From assembly GCF_900155545.1 (NCBI RefSeq), contig NZ_LT732526.1, forward strand, positions 1,898,982 to 1,962,981: DNA of 64,000 nt. Direction: 5' to 3'. The notes beneath the pieces were generated by a model. The model saw only the letters and a list, made by a program, of their open reading frames with translations, had not been told where the DNA came from and made no database searches. Both the position numbers and the translations under genes were made by a program. Below, in pieces: positions 42,947-51,844 of this stretch. The DNA is from Clostridium sp. Marseille-P2415 (lineage in GTDB: Bacteria; Bacillota; Clostridia; Lachnospirales; Lachnospiraceae). How positions within the stretch are numbered: position 1 is the first letter of the stretch; each line of letters begins with the position of its first letter.

Positions 42947-44815
42947 TTATTTGCAGCTCTGATACTTTAAAGCCCGGATCGCATTGAGAATGGCAAGCAC
43001 CGATACCCCTACATCACCAAATACGGCTGCCCACATGGTTGCCAATCCAACCGCTGATAAAAAAAGCACCAGGACTTTTACGCCTATGGCGAAAATGATG
43101 TTCTGCTTCACGATGCCAATGGTTTTTCTGGCTATTACAATGGCATCTACCAGCTTTGACGGTTCGTCTGTCATGATGACCACATCGGCTGCTTCCACCG
43201 CTGCGTCAGAACCAATTCCTCCCATGGCAATGCCCACATCGGCACGGGCAAGGACCGGAGCATCGTTAATACCGTCACCGACAAAAGCAAGCGTTGATCC
43301 TTCCTGCTTCCCTGCCAGCAGTTCTTCTACCTTTCCCACTTTATCGCCGGGCAGCAGCCCGCCGTGGACTTCATCAAGCCCCAGCTTTTGGCCGACTGCC
43401 CGGCCAACTTCCGGCTTATCGCCGGTCAGCATCACCAGCTTTTTAATCCCAGCCGCTTTTAATCCCTTTAATGCTGCCGGAACATCTTCCCGAACGGTAT
43501 CAGAAATGGTAATGGAGCCCAGATAATCTGTCCCATCCGCCACATAAAGCGTTGTTCCGGCTGCAGGACCCTTTCCGGAAACCGCAATCCCCTGCTGTTC
43601 CATGAGTCTTGCATTGCCGATGAACAGCTCACGTTTTTTCTCATCCGCTTCCACCCAGGCCCGGATGCCGTATCCTGCGATTTCTTCCACCTGGCCAATG
43701 AGAGCCTCATTCACGGGTTTTCCGAAAGCTTCCTTTACGGACAAAGCAATGGGATGGTTAGAATGGAATTCTCCGTATGCCGCCAGCTTTAAAAGCTCCT
43801 CTTTCGTTCCTTTTAAAGGTTCCACGCCTGTGACCTTGAACTTGCCGGTGGTCAGGGTGCCGGTTTTATCAAAAACAACCGTTTCCAGAGAAGATACTGC
43901 TTCCAGATAATTGCTTCCCTTCATGAGGATCCCCTGCCTGGAAGCCGCCCCAAGCCCTCCAAAGAAGCTTAGCGGCACGGAAATCACCAATGCACAGGGG
44001 CAGGAAACGACCAGAAAACTGCAGGCACGGTAAATCCATATCCCCCATCCGCCCCCGGATAAAAGGGGCGGAATCACTGCCAGAAACACCGCCAGGATTA
44101 CAACGACCGGCGTGTAAACTCTTGCGAATCTGGTAATGAAATTCTCTGCCTTTGCCTTTCTTGAACTTGCGTTTTCCACAAGCTCCAGAATCTTCGCCAC
44201 AGTGGAATCATCAAACAGCTTTGTTACTTTAACCTCCAGGACGCCGTTTAAGTTGATGGAACCACTGATAACAGCATCGTTCTCCTTAACCTCCACCGGC
44301 ATGGATTCTCCGGTCAGGGCTTTGGCATCAAGGCTTCCGGCCCCCTTTAGGACCACGCCGTCAAGCGGTACCTTTTCTCCCGGTTTGATTACGATCGTAT
44401 CTCCTACTTTAACTTCATAAGGGTCTACTCTCTCTTCTTTCCCTTCCTGCAGTAAATTGGCATATTCCGGATTGATATCCATAAGATCCGTAATGGATTT
44501 TCTTGATTTGTTTACGGCATAATCGTTAAAGAGTTCACCGATCTGATAAAACAGCATAACCCCGACTGCCTCTTCCAAAGCTCCGCAGCCGATTGCGCCG
44601 AATGTTGCCAGCGACATCAGAAAATTCTCATCAAATAACTGTCCGTAGCGGATGTTCCGAACTGCTCTTATGGGGATATCATACCCTGCTGCCAGATAGG
44701 AAACCGCAAAGGGGATCCAGTACCAGGAGACCCTTCCTTCCACGAGCATTCCTGCTATAAAAAATACGGCGCTTGCCACAAGCCTGAATACCATCTTTTT
44801 CTGTTTCTTCGTCAT
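42947..44815 (-). CDS. Heavy-metal P1B-type ATPase (Zn/Cd/Pb exporter type)
   Basis: A 622-residue membrane pump expected to export Zn2+, Cd2+ or Pb2+. Seen: CPC transport motif SCPCAL (272-274), phosphorylation site DKTGT (316-320), HP-locus HSNHP (~351-355), TGES in the actuator domain, and GDGINDAPVLA. The CPC motif fits the P1B-1/P1B-2 classes; pairing with a CadC-like repressor favours Zn/Cd/Pb over Cu. No N-terminal HMA domain is present; it is encoded separately by the next gene upstream (44832-45056), 16 bp away. Confidence 0.93.
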   Translation of the reverse strand: MTKKQKKMVFRLVASAVFFIAGMLVEGRVSWYWIPFAVSYLAAGYDIPIRAVRNIRYGQLFDENFLMSLATFGAIGCGALEEAVGVMLFYQIGELFNDYAVNKSRKSITDLMDINPEYANLLQEGKEERVDPYEVKVGDTIVIKPGEKVPLDGVVLKGAGSLDAKALTGESMPVEVKENDAVISGSINLNGVLEVKVTKLFDDSTVAKILELVENASSRKAKAENFITRFARVYTPVVVILAVFLAVIPPLLSGGGWGIWIYRACSFLVVSCPCALVISVPLSFFGGLGAASRQGILMKGSNYLEAVSSLETVVFDKTGTLTTGKFKVTGVEPLKGTKEELLKLAAYGEFHSNHPIALSVKEAFGKPVNEALIGQVEEIAGYGIRAWVEADEKKRELFIGNARLMEQQGIAVSGKGPAAGTTLYVADGTDYLGSITISDTVREDVPAALKGLKAAGIKKLVMLTGDKPEVGRAVGQKLGLDEVHGGLLPGDKVGKVEELLAGKQEGSTLAFVGDGINDAPVLARADVGIAMGGIGSDAAVEAADVVIMTDEPSKLVDAIVIARKTIGIVKQNIIFAIGVKVLVLFLSAVGLATMWAAVFGDVGVSVLAILNAIRALKYQSCK

Positions 44816-44831
44816 AGCGGCTCCCCTGACC

Positions 44832-45056
44832 TTACCGAAGCACCTTGAATTCTGCTTCCGGCTCGATCTTGTATGCCACTTTCCGGGCAGCTTCTACGAT
44901 TTCATCCATCTTGTTTTCCTGTATTTCCATGGTCAGCCTCTGGGTCATGAAGCTTAAGGATGCACTTCCTACGCCATCCAGTTTCTTTACCTCTTCTTCA
45001 ATTTTGGCCGCACAGTTGGCACAGCATAAGCCTTCTAACTTGATAATCTTTTTCAT
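44832..45056 (-). CDS. Free-standing HMA metal-binding domain protein
   Basis: A 74-residue ferredoxin-like heavy-metal-associated domain with the metal site CCANC (Cys-x-x-Cys in GLCCANCAAKI) and typical beta-alpha-beta order. It corresponds to the N-terminal HMA domain missing from the adjacent ATPase and may deliver metal to it as a chaperone. AAGGAG precedes the start. Order in the operon: repressor, HMA protein, ATPase. Confidence 0.92.
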   Translation of the reverse strand: MKKIIKLEGLCCANCAAKIEEEVKKLDGVGSASLSFMTQRLTMEIQENKMDEIVEAARKVAYKIEPEAEFKVLR

Positions 45057-45098
45057 CTTCTATTCTCTCCTTTTTTATTCGATTTATTACCGTTTCAA

Positions 45099-45482
45099 TC
45101 ACTCGTTGATATGCTCCATTCCCTGAGCCAGAATGGTCTCGATGTGGCCGTCCGCCAGTGAATAGAATACGGTTTTTCCCTCCCTGCGGAACTTCACCAG
45201 ACGCATCTGCTTCAACACCCGAAGCTGATGGGAAATGGCTGACTGCCCCATCTGAAGCAGACTTGCGATATCACACACACACATCTCCGACTGGCTGAGC
45301 ACATAAAGGATTTTTACTCTGGTAGCATCACCAAACACTTTGAAAAAATCCGCCAGGTCGAAAAGCTCCTGCTCCCGGGGCATGGCCTTCAGCACCTGAT
45401 TCACAATGCTTTCATGGACACAGATAAAATCACATTGGTCGAATTCACAGTCCGGTATATTTTTTTTGCTGCCTGGATCCAT
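45099..45482 (-). CDS. ArsR/SmtB family metal-sensing repressor (CadC-like)
   Basis: A 127-residue winged-helix repressor. Helix alpha3 carries SEMCVCDIASLLQ, the ELCVCD-type metal site of CadC, and the N-terminal arm has further Cys in PDCEFDQCDFICVHE, as in Cd/Pb/Zn sensors. The recognition helix is MGQSAISHQLRVLK. The longer frame adds 15 residues; AAGGAGGT stands 5-6 nt before the ATG at 45482. A canonical palindromic operator lies at 45510-45529 over the expected transcription start, so the protein represses its own operon until metal binds. Confidence 0.94.
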   Translation of the reverse strand: MDPGSKKNIPDCEFDQCDFICVHESIVNQVLKAMPREQELFDLADFFKVFGDATRVKILYVLSQSEMCVCDIASLLQMGQSAISHQLRVLKQMRLVKFRREGKTVFYSLADGHIETILAQGMEHINE

Positions 45483-45509
45483 TGTGCACCTCCTTAGTCT
45501 AATATTATT

Positions 45510-45529
45510 ATATGAATATCTGTTCATAT
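45510..45529. promoter_or_regulatory. ArsR/SmtB-type operator of the metal efflux operon
   Basis: Near-perfect palindrome ATATGAACA-GA-TATTCATAT on the minus strand, the 12-2-12-type site of CadC/SmtB/CzrA regulators. It lies just downstream of the -10 box at about +1. Confidence 0.88.
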
Positions 45530-45561: not shown

Positions 45562-45603
45562 GAGCATTTTTAATATCTAATGGCCGCCGGAGGTGAGGAC
45601 AGA

Positions 45604-45629
45604 AAAAAACCACCAACCGGTGGTTTTTT
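45604..45629. terminator. Terminator of the glycosidase operon
   Basis: An 11-bp perfect stem (AAAAAACCACC, 45604-45614, with 45619-45629) ending in T6 on both strands; about 45 bp after the alpha-galactosidase stop. Confidence 0.85.
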
Positions 45630-45673
45630 CCTGATCCTCTTCTTTTCTTAATTCTCTTTTTTACCAATGGATT

Positions 45674-47890
45674 TTAAATTGCCGTCAGCAAAAATAAGCG
45701 CGATTGATAATCACCCTGATCAATATCCGGTGTGTAGATCCCAGTCGGAGTATCTGAAATCGTTAAACCGGTTTGCATCAGTTCATCACCATAATGGGTG
45801 GTACTCCGGTCAGAAATCCGATACTCAATATTTTCCCCAAGTCCGGATAATTTCAAGCGGCGGTATCCAATATTAACAGGCTGTTTTTCCCGGTAATAGC
45901 CGACCAAAGCTTTTTTCTGATCGGGGGAAACGGCCATCCATGATGTTTCCGTTCCTTCAAACGGGCTTAACAGGCGGTAAAAGTCACCTTCATGGATCAA
46001 GGAACGGAAACGTTTCATAAATACAATCTGTGTCTTAATTTCTTCCTGTTCTTCTGCAGTCAGCTTATTTAAGTCAAGCTCATAGCCAAAGGTTCCAAAA
46101 TAAGCAACATCTGCGCGGGTCTTGAGCGAAATATTTCTCATTGTCTGGTGGTTCGGCACTGCGGACACATGACTTCCCATGCAGTCCAGCGGATAAACCA
46201 TGGAGGTACCGTACTGTATCTTTAACCGTTCGACCGCATCCGTATCGTCTGAGGTCCAGCACTGCGGTGCGTAATAGAGCATCCCCGGATCGAACCGGGC
46301 TCCCCCGCTTGCACAGGATTCAAACAGAACGTGGGGAAAACGGGTGGTCAGGCGTTCATACAGCTGATAAACTCCAAGTATATAACGGTGCTGTATTTCG
46401 CTCTGATATCCTGCATCGTTTCCGGCAGAATAAACGTCGGACAGTCCGCGGTTCATATCCCACTTCACATAAGAAACCGGTGCTTTATCCAAAATATCTT
46501 CCATGACATCACCGATGTACTTTATTACTTCCTGTCTGGTAAAGTCCAATACATATTGATTGCGGCTGTGGCAGATCCTGCGGTTTGGCGTTCCCAGCAT
46601 CCAGTCCGGATGGACCCGGTATAAGCAGCTGTCTTTGCTGATCATCTCGGGCTCAAACCACAAACCGAATTTTAATCCTAAGTCCGTTATCTTTTTCGCA
46701 AGACCGGTGATCCCATTCGGAAGTTTTTCCAGATTGGGATACCAATCTCCAAGGGAAGTTGTATCATCATTGCGTTTGCCAAACCACCCATCATCCAGTA
46801 CAAACAGCTCAATACCGAGTTTTTTCGCTGTTCCGGCAATTGAAAGGATCTTTTCTTCATTAAACTTCATATAGGTGGCTTCCCAATTATTTACGAGAAT
46901 CGGCCGTTCCTTATCGCGCCATTCGCCCCTTGCCAGGCGTGTGCGGTATAGCCTGTGAAAAGTCTGGCTCATATAGTTTAAGCCGCGGTCTGAATATACC
47001 AATACAGCTTCCGGCGACTGGAAGGATTCCCCTTTTTTCAGCCTCCATGCAAAACCATTCGGATGAATTCCCAGCAGAATACGGGCTGTGTCATAAGGAT
47101 CCACTTCAATCTGTGCCTGAAAATTACCGCTATATACAAAACTGGCACCTATAACTTCTCCGCTTTGTTCATCCGCATTCCTTCGTTTTAAAACCAAAAA
47201 CGGATTGTACTGATGACTGCTGTGGCCGCGCATGCTGTATACTCCCTGAATTCCCTGATGCAGAGGATGGATTTTCACATTCCGTTCCCTGCCCCACGCG
47301 CCGGTAAGGTCAAGCATATCATAATCACTGTCCGGAAGATCCAGACATAAGCTCTGGGCATTTGTCAGAATAATGCCCTCTTCCAGATCACATTCAAAAC
47401 GGGCATTTCTTGTGATCACCGGCCAATCCTCATAAATTGTGTAGTTTAAAATCAATTTCGTTTGAATCAGCCTGTCTTCCAGCGTTATTTCCAATGTAGC
47501 TGCTTCCCGGTCATCTTCCACATAAGTTGCCGGAAGCCCCTTCAACTTCGGCTTTCCCGGATAGATCCTGTGACCAGTATACTGAAACATTGTTACACGG
47601 CTGCCGTTCTTTTGTAGAATTTCGTATGCAGGGTAACGCACATCGCCGGAGCCGTAAGACGGATATTCCTGCTTGATGTGCTCCAATGAGAAAGCAGAAT
47701 CTCCTTCAAAGCTGCAGTTTGCCATATCCCGCCTGCCAAGCTCCAATAAATGTGCATAGCTGCGGTTATGCAGGTGTTTCCCATAATAAAGCTGGCCAAG
47801 CTGGCCATTCTTCAGAATTTGAAAAATATAGCTGATTTCCTTATTGTAAAGGCAAAATTCTCTTGACTCCTCCAGAAACAGAATTCCCAT
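45674..47890 (-). CDS. GH36 alpha-galactosidase
   Basis: A 738-residue glycoside hydrolase removing terminal alpha-D-galactose. The GH36 layout is visible: N-terminal beta-supersandwich (~1-315), TIM barrel with DDGWFG, WFEPEM and the nucleophile Asp478 in YVKWDMNR, the acid/base Asp548 in SDDTDA, CASGGARFD between them, and a C-terminal beta domain. No signal peptide, so it acts in the cytoplasm. It starts 2 bp after the GH127 stop and is the last gene of the transporter-GH127-GH36 operon. Confidence 0.95.
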   Translation of the reverse strand: MGILFLEESREFCLYNKEISYIFQILKNGQLGQLYYGKHLHNRSYAHLLELGRRDMANCSFEGDSAFSLEHIKQEYPSYGSGDVRYPAYEILQKNGSRVTMFQYTGHRIYPGKPKLKGLPATYVEDDREAATLEITLEDRLIQTKLILNYTIYEDWPVITRNARFECDLEEGIILTNAQSLCLDLPDSDYDMLDLTGAWGRERNVKIHPLHQGIQGVYSMRGHSSHQYNPFLVLKRRNADEQSGEVIGASFVYSGNFQAQIEVDPYDTARILLGIHPNGFAWRLKKGESFQSPEAVLVYSDRGLNYMSQTFHRLYRTRLARGEWRDKERPILVNNWEATYMKFNEEKILSIAGTAKKLGIELFVLDDGWFGKRNDDTTSLGDWYPNLEKLPNGITGLAKKITDLGLKFGLWFEPEMISKDSCLYRVHPDWMLGTPNRRICHSRNQYVLDFTRQEVIKYIGDVMEDILDKAPVSYVKWDMNRGLSDVYSAGNDAGYQSEIQHRYILGVYQLYERLTTRFPHVLFESCASGGARFDPGMLYYAPQCWTSDDTDAVERLKIQYGTSMVYPLDCMGSHVSAVPNHQTMRNISLKTRADVAYFGTFGYELDLNKLTAEEQEEIKTQIVFMKRFRSLIHEGDFYRLLSPFEGTETSWMAVSPDQKKALVGYYREKQPVNIGYRRLKLSGLGENIEYRISDRSTTHYGDELMQTGLTISDTPTGIYTPDIDQGDYQSRLFLLTAI

Positions 47891-47892
47891 AG

Positions 47893-50163
47893 TTAACCTT
47901 TCTTTATATATACCTGATAAGGCTCATAATGAATCTGATACAGGGGTTTGAAGGAAATATCCTGCCCTTTTACGCGAAACTCAAGCGTTCCCGGCTTTTG
48001 TACCAAAAGCTCCTGAACCGGTGTATCCTTGAAAGGCATGGACAGAAATTCCTTGCTTTCCGTCAGCGCGGCAAGCACATAGGGACCATAAGCAAGTGAG
48101 ACGATGCGATCATCATCCGGGGCCGGTTCTACGCGCAGCGTACTGGAAAATACAACCTGCACGCTGTCCTGATTGCACCAATTCCGCTGCAGAACCAGAT
48201 ATCCGTCCTCAACCCTGAATTTTTCTTCGTTTTCATTTACCAGAAGCGAATAACAGTTCCGGCTCCAGTAAGGAATTCTGATTTTTAACGTAAAATCAGC
48301 GTTGCCCTTTATTCGGAGAGTCAGATCACCCGGACAATTTTTCGAAACGCTTTGGACCAGCTTCACATGCTTTTCATTCCAGTCTGCGGCGGAAGGAACA
48401 AAGAGATTAACATACAAAGTATCTTCGTCATGATAATAAATGCTCTCTACATAGCGGAAATGATTCTCCAAACCGGTTCCATGGCAGCAGGAATTCGCTT
48501 CATCAAACTCCTTGGAAAAGCCGGGAGCCAAAGGCATGAAGTAGGTAGATGCGCCGTTTGGTTTACTGTCCCCGGAGGAAAGAATATGATTCATCATGGT
48601 TCTTTCATAGTAATCCATATAAACTGCCGCAGGCCGGTAGCAGTACAATTCCCGGGTTAATTTAAGCATGTTATAAGATGCGCAGGTTTCGGCGGTATTT
48701 TTACTTAACTGCCCGGCAATGCGGTTCGGTTCATGGAACATTTCCCCCTCTCCGGTTCCGCCGATCGCATAACAATGGGACTTTCTGACACTATCCCAAA
48801 AGAAAGAAGCAATGTCATAATAGCGTTTTTCTCCGGAAGCTTCAAAAATCCTCATTGCTCCCATGGCCTGCGGAATATGCTGGTTCGCATGCATTTCATC
48901 CAATGCGTCAATTTCATCTTCCATCGGATAAAATAATTTATCATTATCAAACAGCTTCGCCGCAGCAAGGTGACTTGGCTTTCCGGTCAGTATATAGAGC
49001 TGAGACAGCACATCATTCATTCCTCCGAATTCTCCGGCAATGTACATGCCCCACATTTTAGCGCGCTGCCCGTGGGGCAGTACAGACAGGCGGTTGTAAA
49101 CCCAGTCGCCCATTTTATCCGCAATCTCCAGTGCATTCTTCACTCCGGCGAATTGGCTGCAATCCAGTAAACCTGCCAGAATTTTATGCAGCGTGTAATA
49201 AGGCGCCCATATCTGGGGATATGGAGTATATACCTCCAATAAATCAAACTGTTCCTCGGAATAAGCGCTTAAAAATCCAGGATGATAACCCGGCTGGGAT
49301 TCAAAAGCCTTCTGGCATTCTTCCAGCGCGTTTACCATGTACTCCGCTTTTTTACGGATTTTTTTATCCCGGGTTGCCCGATAGCATAAAGCAAGGGCAG
49401 ACAGGTAATGGCCTGTCGTATGGCCCCGCAGAAGACCGTCGGGAGCATCCCAGCCGATCATTTCCGGTGCGCCTAGTGTATCAAGCCCCGCTGCCCGCCG
49501 GAAATTAACCAGCATCTGATCGTCGTTAACTTTCAAAAGAAAGGACTTAACACGTTTCTGCGCCTCCAGAAACGGGCTTGCACCTTTCAGAATAACCTCT
49601 CCCTGTTGGAATGCCCGTACAGATGGAACCGTGGATATAATTTCATGATCCAGCTTCTCCACAATATGAAGCGTAACCGGTACCGGAATCTTCGTCCCTT
49701 TTAAGAAACCCTCAACATACAAATCACCGGTACACTCCGGCAGAACGCTGTCGGATCCGTTCCAATCCACCGAATGGGCAACGGTCTTTCCATTTTCTGT
49801 TTCAATCACTGCGAATCCCGGCAGATAGAAGGTTTTTCCAAGCTCAGCATAACGTTCAACCGGGTAAACCTTTTTTACCTTTATATTGTTTTCCTCCTCC
49901 AGCACATGAACCAGATATGTTTTTTGCTCTACCGCTTCCCCGTAATGAAAAGTCGCAGTAAGCTGCACATCCCTGGAACCTTTTCCAAAAGCCGGCCGGA
50001 AAACCTTTCCTTCCGGTGTGACAATGCTGTCGTTTCCGCTTTCCCATATTATGGTCGAACCATTGGTTCCCTTTGCTGGCAGGTTCAAGTCAAACTCCAC
50101 GGTATTTAAGTTTCCTAAATAAACGCCTTCCATATCCTTCGCAACAATTTCCTGATCCGTCAT
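47893..50163 (-). CDS. GH127 beta-L-arabinofuranosidase with N-terminal Ig-like region
   Basis: A 756-residue protein. Residues ~1-165 form two beta-rich modules resembling atrophied bacterial Ig-like domains; the GH127 (DUF1680) (alpha/alpha)6 barrel follows from ~190. The Cys3-Glu zinc site of characterised family members is intact: Glu492 and Cys494 in AETCASYNML, and the pair Cys559-Cys560 in NSCCHGTG, one being the expected nucleophile; Glu472/474 in TGEGEMF is the likely acid/base. Characterised GH127 enzymes split beta-L-arabinofuranosides, such as those on hydroxyproline of plant extensins. No signal peptide. Its ATG overlaps the stop of a 39-codon ORF. Confidence 0.9.
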   Translation of the reverse strand: MTDQEIVAKDMEGVYLGNLNTVEFDLNLPAKGTNGSTIIWESGNDSIVTPEGKVFRPAFGKGSRDVQLTATFHYGEAVEQKTYLVHVLEEENNIKVKKVYPVERYAELGKTFYLPGFAVIETENGKTVAHSVDWNGSDSVLPECTGDLYVEGFLKGTKIPVPVTLHIVEKLDHEIISTVPSVRAFQQGEVILKGASPFLEAQKRVKSFLLKVNDDQMLVNFRRAAGLDTLGAPEMIGWDAPDGLLRGHTTGHYLSALALCYRATRDKKIRKKAEYMVNALEECQKAFESQPGYHPGFLSAYSEEQFDLLEVYTPYPQIWAPYYTLHKILAGLLDCSQFAGVKNALEIADKMGDWVYNRLSVLPHGQRAKMWGMYIAGEFGGMNDVLSQLYILTGKPSHLAAAKLFDNDKLFYPMEDEIDALDEMHANQHIPQAMGAMRIFEASGEKRYYDIASFFWDSVRKSHCYAIGGTGEGEMFHEPNRIAGQLSKNTAETCASYNMLKLTRELYCYRPAAVYMDYYERTMMNHILSSGDSKPNGASTYFMPLAPGFSKEFDEANSCCHGTGLENHFRYVESIYYHDEDTLYVNLFVPSAADWNEKHVKLVQSVSKNCPGDLTLRIKGNADFTLKIRIPYWSRNCYSLLVNENEEKFRVEDGYLVLQRNWCNQDSVQVVFSSTLRVEPAPDDDRIVSLAYGPYVLAALTESKEFLSMPFKDTPVQELLVQKPGTLEFRVKGQDISFKPLYQIHYEPYQVYIKKG

Positions 50164-50279
50164 CCCTGCATCACTCCTTTACTTGCTTTTCCATTGATAT
50201 CAAAACGGTTCTCATTCGTATCCCAGATTTCTATGCAGAGCTCATCGGTCATCTGTATGTAAAGCGGTATTGGCTCCAT
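50160..50279 (-). CDS. Possible 39-residue protein coupled to GH127
   Basis: A short frame beginning MEPIPLYIQMTDELCIEIWD and ending KGVMQG. Its TGA overlaps the GH127 start as ATGA, the usual sign of translational coupling. AGGAGG lies 12 nt before this ATG; a second ATG lies 4 nt after the AGGAGG but opens only 12 codons in another frame. The peptide is acidic with one Cys, no membrane segment, and is not recognised. It could be a real small protein, a coupling leader, or the remnant of a larger gene. Confidence 0.45.
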   Translation of the reverse strand: MEPIPLYIQMTDELCIEIWDTNENRFDINGKASKGVMQG

Positions 50280-50329
50280 AATTGCATTTTTCCTCCTACC
50301 TCATAGCGCTCCACTGCATTTCTTATGTT

Positions 50330-51844
50330 TTATATATCTCGTTCCACTCTTTTAGAGAGGAAAAATACCAAAAAACCGGTTACAAATAGAACTGCAGACA
50401 TAATTGGGAACAGCTGCAATTGGGAATCGGCTGTGGTAAATATCTTAAACAGGATGATACTGATTCCGTTTGCAATGGTACCCGCCTGGCTCCAGGCAGT
50501 CTGCATTTGTGTTTCATAATTTGGGGGTGACAGCCTTGCCGTTAAGGAGTTGCCGATCGGATAAGTCAAATTATCTCCAATTCCAAAAATGAAATAATAC
50601 CCCAGCAGCCACATCGGGCTGAATTTGTCATATGTTCCGATAAGTACAGGAATTGCCAGTACAATATACGAGAAAGCGTAGAGGAATATTCCCGTGCCAA
50701 ATTTATACGTTGTCTTTACCCGCGACGCCTTTGTATTCGTCCAGAGCCAGACAAAAACAGGACTTAAAATCAGGCCATATGCCTGTGATACAGAAGTAAA
50801 CGTAGCAGGGGCAAATGTAATGTTGAACAGCACCCGGTTTACCTTTGCCTCGGTGAACACGGCAATAGCCGTACTTGTCATTGTACCGGTCAAAGCAATG
50901 ACGATCTGGATCAAAAACAACTTAAGAAACGGATTCAGTCTATTCCTGTCTGCCTGGGAAATATCCTTTTTCCTTACTAAATTCGTCAGAAATATAATAG
51001 GGATAATAAAAGTAAACGTAACGACAATATTCATGATGCCGTCAAAGGAAATGACTTTTTTAAGGACAAGCCCTGTAATCAGGAGGACAGCAGTAACTAA
51101 TATTGATATTGCAATGACAGATATTTTTTTTAAATCTTTTACTGAAACAGGATTCACAGGCTTATCACCGATGGTCCCGAAAAATTTATGCTGTGTGAGA
51201 AGGATCGTAAGACCATACATAAGAGCTGCAGCAGAACTGATCAAAAAGCCGATGTGGTAGTTGTGCTGCCCGATAAAGCCAATTACCACAGGCGTCACAA
51301 GCCCTGCAATATTGTTTGCAACGGTATGGATCGTGAACGCAGCATCTCTGCGGCCGGAGTCGCCATTCCTATATAACTGGCCGGTTAAGGATGAATTGCT
51401 CGCGCCCATAATCGGTAAGGACATCAGGATAAGGGAAATAAAGGCAAATATTCTGCCCTGCGTCATGGAAAATGCCGGAATTGCCAATATGCCAAAAGCC
51501 GCAGCCTTTACGATATTTCCCGCAATTATAGCTTTCCGCATCCCAAGGAGGCGGTCCGCAAGCCAACTGCCTAAAATGACAAACATGCTGTTACATGCCC
51601 CCATGGCGGCAATCATGGATGCAGCCTGGCCCTGGGAGAAACCAAGGCCTTTCGTATATGGCGAATAAAGATAATAAATCAGAATCGCATAGACTCCGCT
51701 CCATGCAATGGAATTAAATAAATTACCGGCAGCAAGTGCACCCAGGCCCCTTGGATGACCAAAGAACCTTCTGTCGTTTAATATGGCTTCGTTTTCCGGC
51801 CTTTCAATTGCCGGCAAATTTCCTGCTGTGCTGGAATTGTTCAT
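50330..51844 (-). CDS. POT/PTR-like major facilitator transporter
   Basis: A 504-residue transporter with about 12-14 membrane spans. The N-terminus (FFGHPRGLGAL...YAILIYYLY, then GFSQGQAASMIAAMGACNSMFVILGSWLADRLLG) follows the proton-dependent oligopeptide transporter family, but the family's ExxERFxYY motif is replaced by NLFNSIAWSG (both Glu and the Arg lost), so coupling or substrate must differ. It is the first gene of the operon with GH127 and GH36 enzymes. Substrate is inferred as a glycopeptide or glycoside. A general MFS sugar carrier is the alternative. Confidence 0.8.
   Translation of the reverse strand: MNNSSTAGNLPAIERPENEAILNDRRFFGHPRGLGALAAGNLFNSIAWSGVYAILIYYLYSPYTKGLGFSQGQAASMIAAMGACNSMFVILGSWLADRLLGMRKAIIAGNIVKAAAFGILAIPAFSMTQGRIFAFISLILMSLPIMGASNSSLTGQLYRNGDSGRRDAAFTIHTVANNIAGLVTPVVIGFIGQHNYHIGFLISSAAALMYGLTILLTQHKFFGTIGDKPVNPVSVKDLKKISVIAISILVTAVLLITGLVLKKVISFDGIMNIVVTFTFIIPIIFLTNLVRKKDISQADRNRLNPFLKLFLIQIVIALTGTMTSTAIAVFTEAKVNRVLFNITFAPATFTSVSQAYGLILSPVFVWLWTNTKASRVKTTYKFGTGIFLYAFSYIVLAIPVLIGTYDKFSPMWLLGYYFIFGIGDNLTYPIGNSLTARLSPPNYETQMQTAWSQAGTIANGISIILFKIFTTADSQLQLFPIMSAVLFVTGFLVFFLSKRVERDI

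Follow-up and report, generated by a model that had tools for sequence, protein, structure and literature searches.

A POT-family carrier with an altered site, encoded with GH146-like and GH36 glycosidases: a candidate system for hydroxyproline-rich glycopeptides in a Clostridium

What does a bacterium take up and degrade with an operon that joins a carrier of a peptide-transporter family to two glycosidases? Such an operon lies at positions 45674-51844, on the minus strand, of a 64,000-nucleotide stretch of the genome of Clostridium sp. Marseille-P2415, a member of the Lachnospiraceae (contig NZ_LT732526.1), which in its entirety we call the window. An initial annotation, made from the sequence alone, had interpreted the operon as a system for importing plant extensin glycopeptides and stripping them of their sugars, and we find this interpretation partly supported. 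Because peptidase genes and genes for hydroxyproline (Hyp) degradation adjoin relatives of one of the glycosidases, and because the carrier recurs together with both glycosidases elsewhere, we believe that the operon probably lets the cell import Hyp-arabinosylated glycopeptides, or close derivatives of these, and deglycosylate them in the cytosol. Most likely it supplies the uptake and deglycosylation half of a system by which Hyp-rich, extensin-type glycoproteins are used.

The first gene (50330-51844) encodes a carrier of 504 residues. It is followed, after a gap of 166 bp, by a gene (47893-50163) for a 756-residue glycosidase of the glycoside hydrolase (GH) 146 type, the product of which is matched in Pfam by GH127 domains, and then, after only 2 bp, by a gene (45674-47890) for a GH36 α-galactosidase of 738 residues. 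A strong intrinsic terminator (45595-45639, minus strand; an uninterrupted inner stem of 15 bp plus 5 bp, followed by a U tract; -32.7 kcal/mol, z -4.16) lies 3' of the GH36 gene and was not among the matches of a simple consensus terminator scan. The position, strand, tight spacing and single terminator reported in the initial annotation were thus confirmed, as was its view that neither glycosidase has a signal peptide: both N-termini look cytosolic, as judged by eye rather than with a signal-peptide program.

The carrier scored well above the cut-offs of the Pfam family PTR2 (3.9e-18; 65.9 bits, cut-off 27) and the NCBIfam family TIGR00924 (201.3 bits, cut-off 130.2), and its only match in these collections outside the POT families was to the general family MFS_1 (49.6 bits). 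When a model of its fold (pLDDT 79) was searched with Foldseek, GkPOT (4ikv) was among the top matches and the 50 matches listed were all POT/SLC15 proteins. By profile and predicted fold, the carrier belongs to the POT/PTR family. Membership of a disaccharide symporter family, which the initial annotation had named as the finding that would count against its proposal, was not seen: no kinship to sugar symporters appeared among the Pfam, NCBIfam or listed structural matches, a comparison made without a tree that included sugar symporters.

The first glycosidase had been annotated as a member of GH127, and its Pfam matches are indeed to GH127_cat (8.9e-92), to aBig_2 (3.4e-19), an Ig-like domain at the N-terminus, and to GH127M (1.7e-15). 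We reject the GH127 assignment, however, in view of comparisons with known structures. A profile built from eight relatives matched 5opj/6yqh (1.1e-113) and 8k7y (3.3e-80) far better than the GH127 structures 4qjy (1.3e-24) and 3wkw (5.5e-13), and a search with the single sequence ranked the structures in the same way. We take 5opj to be BT0349 and 8k7y to be Bll3HypBA1, both of GH146, and as judged from these matches the enzyme is GH146-like. The part of the initial annotation that concerned the active site held up: E474, E492, C494, C559 and C560 are the same in all 91 sequences aligned (the window protein counted, and five records present twice), and the last four are presumably the Cys3-Glu zinc-binding site with its cysteine nucleophile, E474 being presumably the acid/base.

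What might such an enzyme cleave? According to the parts of PMC10850190 available to us, structures have been solved for both BT0349, which acts on arabinan fragments, and Bll3HypBA1, which acts on β-1,3 linkages in arabinogalactan protein (AGP) or arabinan, and two further GH146 members, Bll4HypBA1 and XeHypBA1, hydrolyze Araf-β1-Hyp. By analogy, removal of arabinose from Hyp falls within the range of the family, which does not in itself prove it for the window enzyme. The likeness to Bll4HypBA1 and XeHypBA1 is one of CAZy family, by profile and not residue by residue; the window protein differs in having an N-terminal aBig_2 domain, in looking cytosolic and in being encoded with a POT carrier and a GH36 enzyme. 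In a GH146 tree (92 rows, made by a quick method and with long branches) its nearest neighbor was the GH146 enzyme of Hungatella effluvii (SH-aLRT 98). The window genome also encodes a second cytosolic GH146 enzyme (C9:248121-250373; 45% identical), whose gene adjoins those for a sodium:dicarboxylate/amino-acid-type symporter and an AraC regulator.

The product of the third gene matched Melibiase (9.6e-162) and the N- and C-terminal domains of GH36 in Pfam, and in the PDB matched 8k1a best (2.7e-275), followed by AgaA and AgaB. Both KWDMNR and SDDTD are present, which we take to be the motifs of the two catalytic aspartates, in keeping with the initial annotation. Judged from its sequence, the protein is a standard α-galactosidase. 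The serines of extensins carry single α-galactose residues.

Are the three genes together by chance? We searched 344 Paenibacillaceae genomes for the carrier, scoring only a few candidates per genome, such that absence is not proof, and found orthologues in eight of them at 56-75% identity (the highest value spans 195 residues of an interrupted gene); no other match at E <= 1e-50 exceeded 31%. Neighboring genes included GH146 at all eight loci (at the eighth after the stretch was extended), an AraC regulator at all eight, an M24 peptidase at seven (one partial), GH36 at six (one broken) and a zinc peptidase at five. By comparison, neither GH146 nor GH36, nor either peptidase, was found near any of 32 canonical POT loci (27 of 68 non-orthologous places in the Paenibacillaceae and five from another search), and none of 20 ordinary GH36 loci, hand-picked to span a range of identities rather than drawn at random, had a POT, GH146, M24 or zinc peptidase gene. 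The zinc peptidase, sought in 344 genomes sampled in the same manner and again with few candidates scored per genome, was found in five, all five being among the eight with the carrier (hypergeometric 1.4e-9), and each time within 10 kb of it.

Relatives of the carrier also adjoin GH146 in Enterococcus phoeniculicola (52% identical), Olsenella (48%) and Bifidobacterium myosotis (39%), with both peptidases at the first two loci. The recurrence of the trio, which the initial annotation had proposed to look for in other gut or soil Lachnospiraceae, is seen in Paenibacillus and Bifidobacterium. Its claim that the system has exactly two activities was too narrow: peptidases are present in most such cassettes and, in the window genome, at another locus. 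A tree of GH36 proteins points the same way. Eight rows from cassettes (of the window, Paenibacillaceae and Bifidobacterium) fell on one side of a branch with support 99/99, and 20 other GH36 proteins, the second copy of the window genome among them, fell on the opposite side. The tree left out the Olsenella copy, a broken copy from P. oralis and one copy from a duplicate genome, and one locus counted as a cassette (L071) begins at a contig end, such that a carrier would be out of view.

Among 25 genomes of the genus that we examined, the carrier was found in that of the window and in none of the other 24, and a search with the carrier alone of named-genome contigs and viral contigs gave no match. 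Some cassettes appear to be decaying: the GH36 gene of P. oralis is in pieces (L160:10424-11597), and the carrier gene of another Paenibacillaceae genome is interrupted (L165:8870-9952). Elsewhere, an M24 peptidase gene comes immediately after a more distant POT gene (L035:7620-10170), which makes a second POT-M24 pairing that lacks a glycosidase.

If the carrier is a POT, is it a peptide transporter? Where GkPOT has E32, E35, R36, Y40 and R43, the window carrier has N41, N44, S45, S49 and Y52, and in place of K136, W306, E310, N342 and E413 it has G147, A317, T321, S353 and D424 (we presume W306 to be a canonical position of the site). The canonical symporter signature, ExxERFxYY in transmembrane helix (TM) 1, Lys in TM4, Glu in TM7, Asn in TM8 and Glu in TM10, is absent from it. 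We tabulated the ten positions for 11 cassette carriers and for 11 of the 32 control POTs. All 11 cassette carriers were altered at nine positions, E32 being replaced by N or T, E35 by N, R36 by S, Y40 by G, S or A, R43 by Y or N, K136 by G, W306 by A, M or G, E310 by T, V or Q, and N342 by Y, S or V; at the position of E413, ten had Asp and one had Gly. The canonical POTs kept all ten residues, apart from a single R43K. Intermediate carriers, from a second locus of the window genome and from Hungatella effluvii, retained only Tyr40 and Glu413.

In the portions of PMC4331665 that we could consult, Tyr40, Arg43, Arg36 (as its equivalent in PepTSo2) and Glu310 are assigned to contacts with the carboxyl end of the peptide and to proton coupling, Asn342 and Glu413 to binding of the amino end, and Lys136-Glu413 to a salt bridge of the gate. 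Because residues that bind the peptide ends and couple protons have been lost, the carrier would not be an ordinary di- or tripeptide carrier like the symporters GkPOT and PepTSt, with which it shares a family according to its Pfam and NCBIfam matches and its predicted fold; transport of ordinary di- and tripeptides by it appears unlikely. Our best guess is that it imports bulkier, glycosylated ligands. Plant NPF relatives lacking the chargeable ExxER residues are in some cases passive and in others still proton-driven, and NPFs carry, for example, glucosinolates and hormones (PMC6288477, in part). The initial annotation was therefore right as to the type of carrier, but its premise that POT carriers move short peptides does not extend readily to this clade.

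The neighborhoods of GH146 genes more generally are informative as to the substrate. We surveyed the best 80 of 115 confirmed GH146 loci in named genomes, many of them cut by contig ends, and read seven further relatives, one being the second copy of the window genome; two of the eight carrier genomes above are also in this set. The 32 POT and 20 GH36 loci together served as 52 controls, at none of which GH146 itself was found. By tblastn at E <= 1e-10, an M24 Xaa-Pro-type peptidase was present at 24 of the 80 loci and at none of the controls (Fisher 1.3e-6), and HypD or a proline-racemase-family gene at 17 (HypD at seven, one of them partial, and the racemase family at ten) as compared with none (Fisher 1.1e-4), P values that overstate independence, because many of the loci compared are closely related. 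An OppA-type binding protein was found at 14 loci (one control), the zinc peptidase at five (no control), POT at six (five at 35% identity or more), GH36 at five (one broken) and a dicarboxylate/amino-acid-type symporter at ten; DHDPS was matched at one control locus. Of the 80 loci, 38 had one or more of six peptide/Hyp markers (M24, zinc peptidase, POT at >= 35%, OppA, HypD and racemase).

Two gene sets for Hyp degradation stand out. HypD and its activase lie near GH146 at L056-L058, L065, L095, L105 and, in part, L082 (L029 and L058 are one record); for two members of each tested, HypD scored 1523 and 1370 bits (cut-off 1100) and the activase 452 and 459 bits (cut-off 425). ProC accompanies them at four of these loci and Opp-type peptide ABC transporters at five. 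A different set accompanies GH146 in Neobacillus niacini (L053) and at seven loci of Paenibacillus (L045-L050, L077). It consists of paired genes of the proline-racemase family together with genes for a DHDPS-family protein and for an aldehyde dehydrogenase that most resembles KGSADH; FAD oxidoreductases and an Xaa-Pro-type peptidase of family M24 are encoded as well wherever the locus extends far enough. Presumably this set is the aerobic route from Hyp to ketoglutarate; the one member tested of each of the racemase, DHDPS and KGSADH types scored below its NCBIfam equivalog cut-off. With one exclusive label per locus, POT taking precedence over HypD, followed by racemase, symporter and M24, and with each copy counted where a locus holds several, the HypD and racemase labels each require at least four changes on the GH146 tree. 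Near other GH146 genes are POT carriers, in most cases together with M24 and zinc peptidases, or else sugar ABC transporters along with LacI or GH31, and some GH146 genes stand alone. Taken together, the Xaa-Pro-type peptidases, the cassette-specific zinc peptidase and the two Hyp-degradation gene sets lend support to the class of substrate proposed in the initial annotation, Hyp-arabinosides or extensin-type glycopeptides. A protein of about 1160-1180 residues (three read; the one tested matched DUF5695) is encoded near GH146 at six loci of one cluster (L071:5135-8608, L076:8254-11805, L075:16530-20003, and at L079, L082 and L087), in two Bifidobacterium species directly after it, and is possibly an unrecognized glycan-active enzyme.

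Where are the peptidases of the window organism? A second locus of its genome (C9, approximately 3,483,000-3,487,000) encodes an M24 peptidase, the zinc peptidase and a further POT that is likewise atypical; neither GH146 nor GH36 adjoins them. Hungatella effluvii has the same run with GH146 inserted between the zinc peptidase and the POT, the proteins being 46% (M24), 45% (zinc peptidase) and 57% (POT) identical to those of the window genome. In the latter, then, glycosidases and peptidases are split over loci, and we infer that the operon and the second locus act together. HExxH and EEYF are invariant in five of five zinc peptidases aligned. Pfam gave a weak match to ATLF (9.8e-6; 25.8 bits, cut-off 27.4) in one member and weaker ones in four others, and a profile of the family found no meaningful match in the PDB. 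Conceivably the enzyme is a Pro-Pro endopeptidase (PPEP). The Foldseek matches of a low-confidence model, among them an S-layer protein, leukotriene A4 hydrolase and antibodies, were set aside; no paper on cytosolic PPEP homologues was found in the open-access literature by title and the start of the abstract.

We propose the following scheme, in which we infer the substrate, the direction of transport and the specificity of the peptidases. Extracellular proteases would release short fragments of a Ser-Hyp-rich glycoprotein, and the POT-derived carrier would import the small glycopeptides or Hyp-glycosides that result. Once these are in the cytosol, β-L-arabinofuranose would be stripped from Hyp by GH146 and α-galactose from Ser by GH36. 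The naked Hyp/Pro-rich peptide would then be cut by the zinc peptidase and the M24 Xaa-Pro/Hyp-type peptidase of the second locus. Because HypD above its cut-off was not found in the window genome, this organism may export Hyp or use it in some other way.

The scheme resembles the HypAA/HypBA2/HypBA1 system of Bifidobacterium longum in its target, Hyp-linked β-L-arabinofuranose of extensin-type glycoproteins, and in relying on a cytosolic cysteine β-L-arabinofuranosidase. There, as described in the part of PMC7263609 seen, the disaccharide β-Ara2 is released by an extracellular GH121 enzyme and is likely taken up through an ABC transporter. Neither GH121 nor a β-Ara2 ABC importer is present in the window operon (GH121 was looked for there and not elsewhere in the genome), which has a POT-derived carrier and a GH146-like enzyme instead; because peptidases and Hyp catabolism accompany the GH146 relatives, it is suggested that the peptide part, too, enters the cell. 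A second parallel is Hyp reduction by HypD and ProC in gut Clostridia, given that HypD, its activase and ProC adjoin close GH146 relatives (L056-L058, L065), although the window genome differs in lacking a HypD above cut-off. PMC9044972 treats free Hyp, and the words plant and extensin are absent from its main text, as far as the source was available.

Other explanations of the operon deserve consideration. The loss of the peptide-terminus residues would fit a non-peptide ligand, and the carrier could thus import small amino-acid glycosides, such as Hyp-Ara1-3, the peptidases serving a parallel supply of peptides. The characterized GH146 enzymes acting on Araf-Hyp (PMC10850190, in part) would be in keeping with this, as would the symporter beside GH146 at ten of the 80 loci and beside the second copy in the window genome. 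Free Hyp-glycosides would not, however, call for the zinc and M24 peptidases present in five and seven of the eight POT cassettes, and GH36 implies a galactosylated serine or another galactoside in the same import; we consider this alternative unlikely. Quite unlikely, in our judgment, is the ordinary use of plant oligosaccharides, in which the carrier would be a sugar symporter for fragments of arabinan, rhamnogalacturonan I or AGP, or for raffinose-type galactosides, and the glycosidases would act on free oligosaccharides. It would account for the resemblance of the window GH36 to ordinary α-galactosidases, for the GH146 relatives that sit with sugar ABC transporters, LacI and GH31, and for the activities of BT0349 and Bll3HypBA1 (PMC10850190, in part), but it leaves unexplained the Xaa-Pro-type peptidases, the cassette-specific zinc peptidase, the Hyp-catabolic genes and the origin of the carrier in a peptide-transporter family. 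Finally, the three genes could be co-transcribed without forming one pathway, their conservation reflecting the hitch-hiking of mobile metabolic genes. Gene order does vary, GH36 is missing from two of eight cassettes, and the carrier is confined to a single genome of the genus among those searched; nevertheless, GH146 is kept near all eight POT orthologues, the cassette GH36 proteins group together across Bacillota and Actinomycetota, and the partners are missing from the 52 control loci, all of which makes this explanation very unlikely.

Uptake and deglycosylation of Hyp-arabinosylated glycopeptides thus remains the reading that we favor, and several observations weigh against it, in addition to the relatedness of the compared loci. 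The functions of the enzymes and the carrier are predicted from sequence and gene context, and with the peptide-end residues lost, save for the Asp at the E413 position, recognition of peptides by the carrier is putative. As many as 42 of the 80 GH146 loci have none of the six peptide/Hyp markers; ten of these have the dicarboxylate/amino-acid-type symporter, and sugar ABC transporters, LacI or GH31 are found at others. The AraC neighbor is unspecific, having been matched at 15 of 52 controls. GH36 is absent from two of the eight orthologous cassettes, the GH36 neighbor in Olsenella is only 31% identical to that of the window, and Bifidobacterium myosotis has POT, GH36 and GH146 with neither peptidase in the stretch seen. 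The zinc peptidase model is poor (pLDDT 69), with scattered matches and no PPEP among the 50 listed by Foldseek. In the window genome the peptidases lie outside the window, HypD above cut-off was not found, and the only match to PF05544 is a fragment, with no intact proline-racemase-family gene. Use of Hyp by this organism through HypD or a proline-racemase-family enzyme is therefore not supported. The fragment (C9:196470-196658) is short, has an in-frame stop and may be the remnant of a former hydroxyproline pathway.

A few features of the locus remain to be mentioned. The initial annotation had counted a 39-codon open reading frame (50160-50279, minus strand), which overlaps the GH146-type gene by 4 bp, as part of the operon. 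We do not accept it as a gene, because it has no match in Pfam or NCBIfam and because the better Shine-Dalgarno sequence belongs to an ATG a little upstream, whose frame stops after 12 codons. In G+C content (0.42-0.49 per kb) the operon resembles the DNA around it (0.43-0.52). On the same strand, downstream of the operon (42947-45527), are genes that by their looks encode a P-type ATPase for metals, a small protein of the HMA type and a regulator like ArsR/CadC.

Extensins, like other Hyp-rich glycoproteins, belong to the components of the plant cell wall that resist proteases. It is possible, and we suggest it tentatively, that a clade of POT carriers gave up its di/tripeptide site and became a dedicated importer of Hyp-arabinosylated glycopeptides, traveling among Bacillota and Actinomycetota as a cassette of carrier, GH146, often GH36, an AraC regulator, a zinc peptidase and an M24 peptidase. 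Together with the GH146 loci tied to HypD and ProC or to an epimerase-KGSADH-type Hyp set, such cassettes would constitute a bacterial route for using whole plant cell-wall glycopeptides, both sugars and hydroxyproline. In the open-access literature, as covered by titles and the starts of abstracts and with subscription papers largely uncovered, we found no description of such a cassette or POT clade, nor any paper joining HypD with extensin or joining Hyp, arabinofuranosidase, gene cluster, peptidase and Paenibacillus. If the proposal is correct, it would make clear how bacteria of the gut and soil obtain carbon and nitrogen from Hyp-rich proteins and would connect plant glycoproteins with hydroxyproline metabolism in the gut, and the POT family would include a clade with a new class of substrate, whose altered site is directly testable.

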